DNA of 64,000 bases from Halothiobacillus sp. (GTDB lineage: Bacteria > Pseudomonadota > Gammaproteobacteria > Halothiobacillales > Halothiobacillaceae), in assembly GCA_016278265.1 (NCBI GenBank), contig JADQCE010000002.1, positions 248,001-312,000 of the forward strand, read 5' to 3'. Each line of letters starts with the position of its first letter. The first letter of the stretch is position 1. A program made the translations under genes and the position numbers. Under the pieces are notes generated by a model, which saw only the letters and a program-made list of their open reading frames with translations, was not told where the DNA came from and made no database searches. Positions 54,712 through 59,253 of the stretch are shown here, piece by piece.

Positions 54712-54750
54712 GGTCGAGACGGCGATCGGGTTGCTTGCGGCCGGGATCGC

Positions 54751-54778
54751 CATAGACGGTCCTGGCCAGCCGTCTGTG
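54751..54778 (+). terminator. hairpin downstream of rnhA, possible terminator
   Basis: 9-bp stem (54751-54759 with 54770-54778, one G-U pair) with a ten-base loop that contains CTGGCCAG. There is no T-run after it, so intrinsic termination is doubtful. Confidence 0.35.
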
Positions 54779-54874
54779 ATCGATCGCTCGATACGGAGCG
54801 TATGTTGGCTCACAGGTCAGCGACACCAAGCCGACCCAGCGGCCGATTAGCGCCCCGGACCAGGTGGTGACGGT

Positions 54875-55036
54875 ATGAGCCAAGAGCAGTCGCCGGGTGA
54901 TTGCCTCATTGACGAGGGTGAGGTGCTTGATGCTGGTGGCCTGTTTAGCGCCACGGGCCGATTCTGTCGTTTACTCCCCCTGAAGCTCCTCCAGATGAAA
55001 TTCTTGGGTGCCGTCCAGGTTGGCGGGCGTTTCTGA
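54875..55036 (+). CDS. possible 53-codon ORF, unknown
   Basis: ATG 54875 preceded by AGGTGG about seven bases upstream; the peptide starts MSQEQSPGDCLIDEGEVLDA and has two Cys and a basic-hydrophobic C-terminal half (RFCRLLPLKLLQMKF). No family recognised. It may be a remnant of a larger gene or chance; coding support is limited to the ribosome site. Confidence 0.25.
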   Translation: MSQEQSPGDCLIDEGEVLDAGGLFSATGRFCRLLPLKLLQMKFLGAVQVGGRF

Positions 55037-55184
55037 GGCGCCTGATCTCGACCGATGTATTCGGCTCAATTGATGGATTGTGTGTCGTATGGCTGTGCTC
55101 CCGGTGCCGGCTATCTGAGGTTAGGGCCTCGGGCTCCCTCTATTGGTGGTCTGTTAGACTGCGCCACGGGTCCTTCTGTGCTCC

Positions 55185-55236
55185 GGTTACCACAGAATTC
55201 GTTCGGCGAGAGAGCTCGCTGAAAGTTGGGGTAACC
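55185..55236 (+). repeat. nested inverted repeat upstream of the KaiC-like gene
   Basis: Outer arms GGTTACC (55185-55191) and GGTAACC (55230-55236) enclose an inner hairpin GCGAG-AGAG-CTCGC (55206-55219). It lies about 95 bases before the ATG of the KaiC-like gene and could be a leader structure or a regulator site. Confidence 0.35.
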
Positions 55237-55331
55237 TTGATTTGTGGCATTTGTTGGTCCGCACAGGATCTTCCTGCAACTGACACGGGGGGCAGATCGG
55301 ATCGCCACGGTTTTGCAACGAGGAGAGCAGT

Positions 55332-56796
55332 ATGGAAGGCACCGGTGAGGGACGTATATCCACTGGCGTGAGCGGATTGGATAGGGTCGTCTCGGGGGGG
55401 GCTGCTACCGGAGCGCGCCTACCTGGTTCGGGGTGGCCCGGGGTTGGGGAAAACCACGCTGGGCATGCAGTTCCTGACGGCCAAGGCCGGCGAGCCGGCC
55501 TTGTTCGTAACCATGGGGGAGCACGTCGATCAGCTGCGTACCGATGCGCGAAATCAGGGCTTCGACCTGTCGGGGGTCGAGTTTCTGGATCTCACGCCAG
55601 CTCAGGGCGATAGCATGGATCTGGAGAGCTATGACCTGATGGCGCCGGCCGAGGCGGAGTCCAATCCCATCGGGGAGCGCATCGGCGAAATCTTCAAGGC
55701 CTTACGTCCCCGCCGGGTATTCATTGATTCCCTGAGTCACCTCAGTTACCTAGCGCCGGATGCCTTCCAGTACCGCAAGCAAGTAATGGGGTTGCTGCGT
55801 TATTTGACACAGCACGGCGCTACCGTTCTCTCGGCGGCCGAAATCGTGGTCGAGCCGGCGAACGCCGACGAATTGCAATTCCTGGCCGACGGGATCATTG
55901 ATCTTTCCTGGCGGGGCGAGCGTCGGCTGCTCTCGGTGACAAAGTTCCGGGGGGCGGGCTATGTCGGCGGTGTCCACACGATCCGCCTGGACGGCCGAGG
56001 CATGACCTGCTATCCGCGTCTTGAACCGGGTGAGCATCAGCGGGGGCATCAACGCGAGACGCTCGAGAGCGGTGTGCCCGAACTGGACCGGCTCCTCATG
56101 GGCGGGATTACCAAGGGGACGGTCACTGTCATCAGCGGCCCCACCGGGGTAGGCAAGACGACCCTCGGCCTACAATTTCTCAGAGCGGTAGCGGCGCGTG
56201 GCGAACGTAGCGTGCTCTATAGCTTCGAGGAAAACGACCAGACGCTCCGTTGCCGCGCCGAATCCACCAGCCTTGACTTTGCTGAGGCGGAAGCCGATAA
56301 CCGCTTTGCCCTACATACCATCGAGCCGTTGCGTTACTCGGCAGATGAGTTCGCCGAGCGGCTCCGCGACGAGGTTGAGAATCGCGGGGCCAGCATGGTG
56401 ATGATCGATAGTTTGTCGGGATTTCGTCTCAGCGTGGCGGGAGACGATATGGTGCAGCGCATATTGTCCCTGTGTCGTTACCTGACCAATATGGGGGTCA
56501 CCGTCCTGGTGATTAACGAGGTGGCGAATATCGCCGGAGAGACTGTGCAGGTTTCGGAGGAGGGCATTAGTTTCTTGGCGGATTCCGTGCTGATGCTTCG
56601 GTATCTCGAACTCAATGGTCAGTTGCACAAGGCCATTGGCGTGCTGAAAAAGCGAACGGGGAATTTCGAGAAGACCCTGAGGGAGTTCGAGATCACCAAG
56701 GAAGGTATCCGTGTGGGCGAACCGCTCACCCAACTGCGTGGCATCCTGCGCGGTTTCCCCGAGCTCGTCGAACGTTCTGTCGACAGCGATAGCTAA
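55332..56796 (+). CDS. two-domain KaiC-like ATPase, reading frame interrupted at a G8 tract
   Basis: RecA-fold KaiC/circadian-clock-family ATPase. Frame one opens at ATG 55332 with a GAGGAG ribosome site and reads STGVSGLDRVVSGG, a typical KaiC start. At the run of eight G (55394-55401) the homology moves to the next frame (from 55402: LLPERAYLVRGGPGLGKTT) and continues to 56796. With one G removed the product is 487 aa: KaiC domain I with Walker A Lys about 40, and domain II (from about 240) with GPTGVGKTT (Lys about 275) and the Glu pair in LYSFEENDQ. As written, frame one ends at 55613 and an out-of-frame TTG at 55444 would start inside Walker A. Either a phase-variable or slippage gene, a fresh frameshift, or a sequence error. 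Followed 18 bases later by a c-di-GMP gene. Confidence 0.85.
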
Positions 56797-56814
56797 CCAA
56801 AGGTATATGCGTCG

Positions 56815-59124
56815 ATGTCGACCCGAGTCTCCGCACCCGAGGTGCGCTCGTCCCAGGAGTGGGCGGCTCCGTCCGGGCAGGAACGTATTCTTCTGTTGAT
56901 ACCCCCAGCGGACCGTCGTGTACTTGCCCGGGCACTGGATTATCCAGTGGTCGAGCCCGTTGGCGACCTGGCTCAATTCCGGGCTGATTTGATAATTGCC
57001 GATCTGCCCTACCTGGAGCGCCATGCCGAATCCTTGGCAATCATGCGGGAGCGCGCCGGGAATGTGATCTTGCCCTTACTGTTGGCCACTCCTCCGCAGC
57101 AATTTGCGGCCGCGGGGCGACACCTCGGTGGACTGGCCGAGGACGTTGTTCGCACCCCGATCTCCCAACTTGAATTGACGAGCAGGGTGCGCAACCTCTT
57201 GCGTTTGCGCCGCTATTCCATCGCCACGGCAGACATGATCCGAGGCACGGAAACCGAACTCGCAGGTTCCGAGCGCAACTTGCGGGTCTTGTCGGTTGCT
57301 AACGAACATTTGGTCCGTGCCAGAACGCAAGGAGAACTCCTCGATCGCGTGTGCGAGGGATTGGTCTCCGAGGGGGGGTACTGGGTGGCTTGGGTCGGTC
57401 GTGTGCAATCCGATCATCCCACGCGGGTTGTGCCTCTGTCCCAGGCGGGCCCTGGTGTTCGGGGTATGAGACGGGTCGACCTCCTGGCAGAGGAACGCAT
57501 CAGAAACCGGCTTGCCGTCGAAGCGGTTACCGAGGACCGGATGTGCGTCCTCAATGACACGGCTTCCGGCCCTGATGAGGGAGAGGAGGCGGCTGGTCTG
57601 TCGGAGGGAGAAGGGCGATCTGCGATTGCCCTGCCGATCCGTCTCGATCAACGGCCGGAATGGGTCCTCGTGCTCCATTCTGACCAGTCGCATGCCTTTG
57701 ACGAGGATGCGTGCCGGCTGCTGATTCGCCTTCGGGATAACCTCGCCTATGGCCTTTCCGCCCTGCGGGAGCAGGAACGTCGCATTTCCAGCGAGCATCA
57801 TGCGATTCACATCGCCAATCACGACAATCTTACCGGCGTGGCCAATCGAAAGGCGGCGGTGGAACGGTTGCGTGAGTTGTTGGAAAGCCGGGGCGAACGG
57901 CGAGACAGGGAGATTGCCCTGTTGTTCCTCGACCTGGACGGCTTCAAGCTGATCAACGATGTACTGGGCCATGATCAAGGGGACAAGATTCTGATCGAAG
58001 TGGCCCGGCGGCTGCAGTCGTCGGTGCGGGATAACGACTTGGTGGCCCGACAGGGTGGGGATGAATTCCTGGTGATCGTGGGAGGTGAGGGGTCGAATGG
58101 CGAGCCAATTCGTGTGGCTGCGCGCCGTGTCGCCAAACGTTTAATCGATGCACTGGGCGAATCTTTTGTGCTTGGCGGTTCCACCTACGATTTGAGGGTC
58201 AGTATCGGCATTGCGCTTTATCCGACGGATGCGACCGATCCGACGAGCCTGCTCGCGGGCGCGGACAGCGCCATGTACGAGGCCAAGCAGCGTGGCGGAG
58301 GCATGTATGAATTCTTCTCAGCGGATCTGGCGTCGCGTGAACGTCACCGTCTGACGCTGGAGCGAAACCTGCGGCGTGCCGTGGAAAATGGCGATCTAGA
58401 AGTGGCGTTCCAGCCGATTGTGGAACTTAATAAAGGCCAGATGGTGGGCGTGGAGGCCCTCATGCGTTGGCCACAGGACGACGGTTCTTTTATCTCCCCA
58501 ACCGAATTCATCCCTATCGCCGAAGACACAGGATTAATCCTGCCTATCAGTGATCGAATGATCGAGGCGACGGTCTCTGCGCTGGCGCGCTGGAATAATG
58601 CCGGTCATGACATGCGTGCCGCCATAAATCTTTCGACCGCCCAGATGCGTCGTGATGGCATCGTTGAACAACTGGTGGAAGTGATGGAGCGGCATGCCTT
58701 GCCGACCCACCGCTTGGATGTGGAGCTTACTGAAACCGAGTTGATGCATGACATCGAGCGCATGGAGGCAATCCTGTATGCACTGAGCGAGGCCGGTTTC
58801 GTTATTGCCATAGACGATTTCGGTACCGGCTACTCCTCCCTTGCTCGGCTCAAGAAACTGCCAATCAACAAGCTTAAAATCGACAAGGGGTTTTTGGCCG
58901 GTGTGCCAGAGAACCGGGGTGATGCCACTCTGGTGAGAACCATCACCACACTTGCCCACAATCTCGGTATCCAGGTGGTGGCTGAGGGCGTTGAAAGGGA
59001 GGAGCAATGGAGGTTGCTCCAGGAACTTGGCTGCGAGTGGGGACAGGGCTTTTATTTCGCTCGACCGACTGATGAAGCGGAGATCAGTCGATTGTTGGCC
59101 CTCGGGAAAAACATTCGCCCGTAG
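56815..59124 (+). CDS. response-regulator-like / GAF / GGDEF / EAL bifunctional cyclic-di-GMP enzyme
   Basis: 769 aa from ATG 56815. Residues about 22-130 resemble a degenerate receiver domain without an obvious phosphorylatable Asp pocket; about 150-315 is GAF-like; GGDEF domain about 335-500 with intact GGDEF (414-418) and the I-site RDND (405-408, five residues upstream); EAL domain about 515-765 with EAL (547-549), INLS, ELTETEL, DDFGTGYSSL, KIDKGF and VVAEGVE. Both synthase and phosphodiesterase sites look complete, and feedback inhibition is expected. It probably shares an operon with the KaiC-like gene. Its GC content looks lower than surrounding genes, and a G7 run lies in frame at 57372-57378. 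Confidence 0.92.
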   Translation: MSTRVSAPEVRSSQEWAAPSGQERILLLIPPADRRVLARALDYPVVEPVGDLAQFRADLIIADLPYLERHAESLAIMRERAGNVILPLLLATPPQQFAAAGRHLGGLAEDVVRTPISQLELTSRVRNLLRLRRYSIATADMIRGTETELAGSERNLRVLSVANEHLVRARTQGELLDRVCEGLVSEGGYWVAWVGRVQSDHPTRVVPLSQAGPGVRGMRRVDLLAEERIRNRLAVEAVTEDRMCVLNDTASGPDEGEEAAGLSEGEGRSAIALPIRLDQRPEWVLVLHSDQSHAFDEDACRLLIRLRDNLAYGLSALREQERRISSEHHAIHIANHDNLTGVANRKAAVERLRELLESRGERRDREIALLFLDLDGFKLINDVLGHDQGDKILIEVARRLQSSVRDNDLVARQGGDEFLVIVGGEGSNGEPIRVAARRVAKRLIDALGESFVLGGSTYDLRVSIGIALYPTDATDPTSLLAGADSAMYEAKQRGGGMYEFFSADLASRERHRLTLERNLRRAVENGDLEVAFQPIVELNKGQMVGVEALMRWPQDDGSFISPTEFIPIAEDTGLILPISDRMIEATVSALARWNNAGHDMRAAINLSTAQMRRDGIVEQLVEVMERHALPTHRLDVELTETELMHDIERMEAILYALSEAGFVIAIDDFGTGYSSLARLKKLPINKLKIDKGFLAGVPENRGDATLVRTITTLAHNLGIQVVAEGVEREEQWRLLQELGCEWGQGFYFARPTDEAEISRLLALGKNIRP

Positions 59125-59253
59125 GAAGAAATGGTGGGCTGAGCGGAACACCGCCCGGCCGGACAGGCAGCGAGCGAAGGTGACGTTTTGCGCGCATGCT
59201 GATGCCGTTGGCAGGTGGATGACGGGGCGGACGGCACAACGAGGGTGGCGACG

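Follow-up and report, generated by a model that had tools for sequence, protein, structure and literature searches.

In the window (the whole stretch of 64,000 nucleotides of Halothiobacillus sp. DNA analyzed), a gene of the KaiC type and a GAF-GGDEF-EAL gene lie together in a low-GC cassette. The features of the locus are as follows.

54712–59227, + strand: low-GC cassette of kaiC and its GGDEF-EAL neighbor, flanked by rnhA and an efflux operon (congener alignment, GC)
55320–55325, + strand: ribosome-binding site GAGGAG, ahead of the KaiC start (sequence)
55332–55613, + strand: 5′ frame from ATG 55332, with KaiC residues 1–23 and an out-of-frame tail after them (reading frame; no Pfam match)
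55372–56796, + strand: KaiC frame, covering CI from its Walker A onward and all of CII, with no internal stop (reading frame, Pfam)
55394–55401, + strand: G8 tract, junction of the two frames (sequence, run counts, homologue comparison)
56815–59124, + strand: GAF-GGDEF-EAL gene, co-directional, a regular partner of this KaiC type (Pfam, neighborhoods)

Direct reading of the sequence confirms eight G at 55394–55401 (+), and the two frames of kaiC meet inside that tract, at the conserved Gly-Gly of the CI domain. The 5′ frame gives MEGTGEGRISTGVSGLDRVVSGG, a typical KaiC start, then nonsense up to a stop after 93 aa; a Pfam search with the product of 55332–55613 returns no match. The KaiC frame, at +1 relative to the start, is open over 55372–56796 and reads GGLLPERAYLVRGGPGLGKTTLG... 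from the G8 onward. The one continuous reading frame of the KaiC family is thus interrupted, in the assembly, by a frame change at the tract. An alternative start rescuing the CI domain can be ruled out: the first ATG, GTG, or TTG in the KaiC frame is TTG 55444, within Walker A, so that no start restores that domain. The G8 is the longest homopolymer of kaiC (the next longest is a G6), and a break exactly there indicates a one-base slip, either in replication or in sequencing. No other stop or shift occurs across 1.4 kb of the gene. The initial annotation had described a KaiC N-terminus and its Walker A continuation in different frames joined at the G8, a strong ribosome site for the 5′ frame, and an otherwise undamaged gene; both frames, the GAGGAG at 55320 with a well-placed ATG at 55332, and the intact remainder bear this out. 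Its statement that kaiC is in an OFF state agrees with the gene as assembled, which reads OFF because a slip-prone tract has changed in length.

The product is a two-domain KaiC. The Pfam family PF06745 (KaiC) gives two separate matches along it (whole-protein E 1e-55), the Walker A motifs GPGLGKTT and GPTGVGKTT of two tandem RecA-like domains are present in the KaiC frame, and the nearest solved chains are KaiC. Such RecA-like domains with Walker A are common to the product and to the two-domain KaiC family of non-cyanobacterial type (PF06745; NF006799/TIGR02655), from which it differs in being out of frame as assembled and in its pairing with GGDEF-EAL. By the curated cut-offs, it is not a clock KaiC (207 vs. 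408 bits and 147 vs. 546 bits) and, unlike in the circadian KaiABC clock, no KaiB was found in the genome. At the CII phosphosite, in our reading of the comparison with solved KaiC chains, Ser is retained and Thr is replaced by Phe. The nearest homologues, at 51% identity, belong to Vreelandella utahensis and to a Halomonadaceae bin, the nearest named ones coming from Halomonadaceae and an Ectothiorhodospiraceae MAG.

In alignments with the congeners, the flanks of the cassette (rnhA and the efflux genes) are conserved, whereas kaiC and GGDEF-EAL are missing from all ten congeners searched. The GC content is 0.60 in the cassette versus 0.68–0.69 in the surroundings, and GC3 is 0.73 and 0.66 versus 0.84–0.91. 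Since both values fall below those of the surroundings, the cassette is probably a horizontally acquired, species-specific one. No long direct or inverted repeats, as would mark the ends of a mobile element, are present at its edges. Depending on the congener, the interval from rnhA to the efflux genes carries different cargo: about 60 bp separates the flanks in one congener (G005), a cation ATPase occupies the spot in five others, and kaiC with GGDEF-EAL is found here (54712–59227). Next to the cassette, there are no convincing remnants of the cation ATPase.

In other genomes, all 11 KaiC homologues compared (25–51% identical) are open from start to stop in a single frame, and the G runs ahead of their Walker A contain only 3–6 G. 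Because these homologues are intact with only 3–6 G near the site, the G8 tract, as judged from the aligned genes, is a local accident of GGG codons and not a kept feature. As in pseudogenes, the frame lesion of kaiC is absent from intact relatives (the 11 homologues); further inactivating mutations, another mark of pseudogenes, do not occur in its 1.4 kb, as would be expected if the loss were very recent or the break an error. Sister copies of kaiC were sought in the genus, the family, and the order, and none is closer than 26%; the genus has a single distant match, at 26%, and this is a different KaiC-like protein. With the cassette absent from the congeners, there is no sister copy in which variation of the tract length could be seen.

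Judged by composition, a G8 is unremarkable: the window has one, against 6.9 ± 3.7 expected from dinucleotide shuffles. When that expectation is scaled up to the genome, about 294 eight-mer G matches are expected and 38 are found; long G runs are avoided in this genome. Exact G runs occur genome-wide as 64 G7, 15 G8, 6 G9, 1 G10, and 2 G11 (the tallies from G8 to G11, 24 tracts of at least G8, counted by hand from the pattern-search list). The congeners have 2 to 41 eight-mer G matches, and the Halothiobacillus genome analyzed here is near the top of that range. In Campylobacter jejuni, which accumulates long G runs, the trend is opposite, with G runs exceeding chance and G9–G10 the commonest (PMC6321876). 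The G10 at L058:1501–1510 immediately precedes an alpha/beta-hydrolase-like gene, and the G11 at L049:907–917 a PAS sensor-like gene (both named from their translations); these two are possible promoter-spacing tracts.

The assembly is a draft of 23 contigs. A comparison of 272 kb with one congener (G009), covering about 190 conserved genes, yielded no convincing frameshift among the internal-stop flags checked, which were part of the total. The frame-split candidates that were checked carry no Pfam domain; others are located at over-long gene starts. Besides kaiC, at least five domain genes contain G8–G9 tracts that are in frame within the domain match: CheZ, DctM, a DNA methylase, a P22_AR gene (two tracts), and an FrhB/FdhB gene. 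With the conserved genes free of convincing frameshifts and several coding G8–G9 tracts in frame, a general assembly problem is unlikely. An apparent frame break at C18:329008 is actually the junction of two overlapping genes.

Two other genes are damaged at or near long G runs. In a polysaccharide cluster, a C5-epimerase-like gene breaks at a G8 (C10:707324–707331; L067:1501–1508; L200 near 7325), with PF06662 positions 1–69 before the tract and 65–159 after it in the next frame, a break in the same direction as in kaiC. That gene has an additional nonsense codon downstream from the G8 and lies in a region with a GC content of 0.45–0.48; its damage looks like genuine decay, in a gene of the accessory kind. 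A damaged cytochrome b561 gene holds a G11 (C10:46906–46916; L053:1501–1511), with the damage just upstream of the run, and the congeners have no G run at that site. This damage could be either a local assembly error or decay.

With moderate confidence, we attribute the break in kaiC to a real and recent slippage event that inactivated this accessory gene and was probably not selected. In the acquired cassette, the two conserved glycines are encoded by GGG GGG, and the codon before them has G as its last base. This yields a slip-prone run, and on this reading a one-base change of its length has put kaiC out of frame. As long as it is out of frame, only the 93-aa fragment would be made from the normal start, and the control by KaiC of the downstream c-di-GMP enzyme, which we infer from the conserved gene pair, would be lost; the change should in principle be revertible through slippage. 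Indel rates climb with homopolymer length in mismatch-repair-deficient lines (PMC5854121). In the present genome, MutS is intact by profile, so that the instability of the kaiC G8 would be modest. The C5-epimerase-like gene, with a G8 break and a nonsense codon, argues for real decay of accessory genes in this genome. Against a real slippage mutation, the G11 region of the cytochrome b561 gene hints at local G-rich errors, and kaiC is without a second lesion, so its decay is not proved. A homopolymer error, with a true tract of another length and an ordinary intact kaiC, is a tentative but serious possibility: the change amounts to one base, at the longest homopolymer in a gene free of other damage, the assembly is a draft, a second gene (the C5-epimerase-like one) is broken at a G8, and the G11 region, with no run in the congeners, is messy. 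According to published work, many frameshift pseudogenes are assembly artefacts (PMC11017572), and lone frameshifts that homology confirms often stem from sequencing errors (PMC3711429); kaiC, with one homology-confirmed break that no homologue shares, resembles such singleton frameshifts and nothing distinguishes it from them. The conserved genes without convincing frameshift and the other coding tracts in frame speak against this explanation, and a homopolymer error would leave the nonsense codon of the C5-epimerase-like gene unexplained. As matters stand, the case is a caution that G8 frame breaks in GC-rich drafts need read support.

Slippage could also have been selected, with the G8 switching KaiC between on and off in some of the cells, as the initial annotation had proposed; this is improbable. 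Like the poly-G phase-variable genes of Campylobacter and Neisseria, kaiC has within the gene, near the start, a G tract long enough (at least 7–8) for a one-base change to set the frame, and in Campylobacter switching is demonstrated from G8 upward (PMC6321876). The gene is free of other lesions and is a regulatory one adjoining a c-di-GMP enzyme. However, unlike in those systems, the tract is conserved in none of the 11 homologues and the genome is depleted in long G runs instead of enriched. MutS is present, kaiC is an acquired, species-specific accessory gene missing from the congeners, and the C5-epimerase-like accessory gene, broken at its G8 in the same direction, is plainly decaying. 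We strongly doubt, then, that the G8 makes the KaiC ATPase phase-variable and that the population is split through KaiC control of the c-di-GMP enzyme. A literature search on phase-variable or frameshifted KaiC found nothing relevant; a true switch would be the first phase-variable KaiC as far as the searched literature shows, and would link ATPases of the clock type with bet-hedging in c-di-GMP signaling. Recoding, in which ribosomes shifting by +1 or a polymerase slipping during transcription of the G run would yield some full-length KaiC, is very improbable. Both frames do overlap at a homopolymer, and polymerases are able to slip on long runs. But the required shift is +1 (or −2) and not the common −1, and RNA folding around the G8 is no stronger than in shuffled controls (z −0.46 and 0.53). 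Programmed sites have a conserved frame change at a slippery sequence, whereas the 11 homologues use one frame and 0/11 have a frameshift or a comparably long G tract at the site. The earlier suggestion that a part of the transcripts is corrected in this way thus finds no support.

Whatever the origin of the break, the pairing of kaiC with GGDEF-EAL is also seen in Vreelandella utahensis and in three or more further genomes (L039:7425–9713; L114, L115, L116). A KaiC of this type followed by GGDEF-EAL in several genera suggests an output from KaiC to c-di-GMP. Among the titles and abstracts listed for KaiC with GGDEF or c-di-GMP, none describes such an operon. The occurrence of the pair across several genera makes this output testable in a host with an intact gene, for example, a Halomonas relative.
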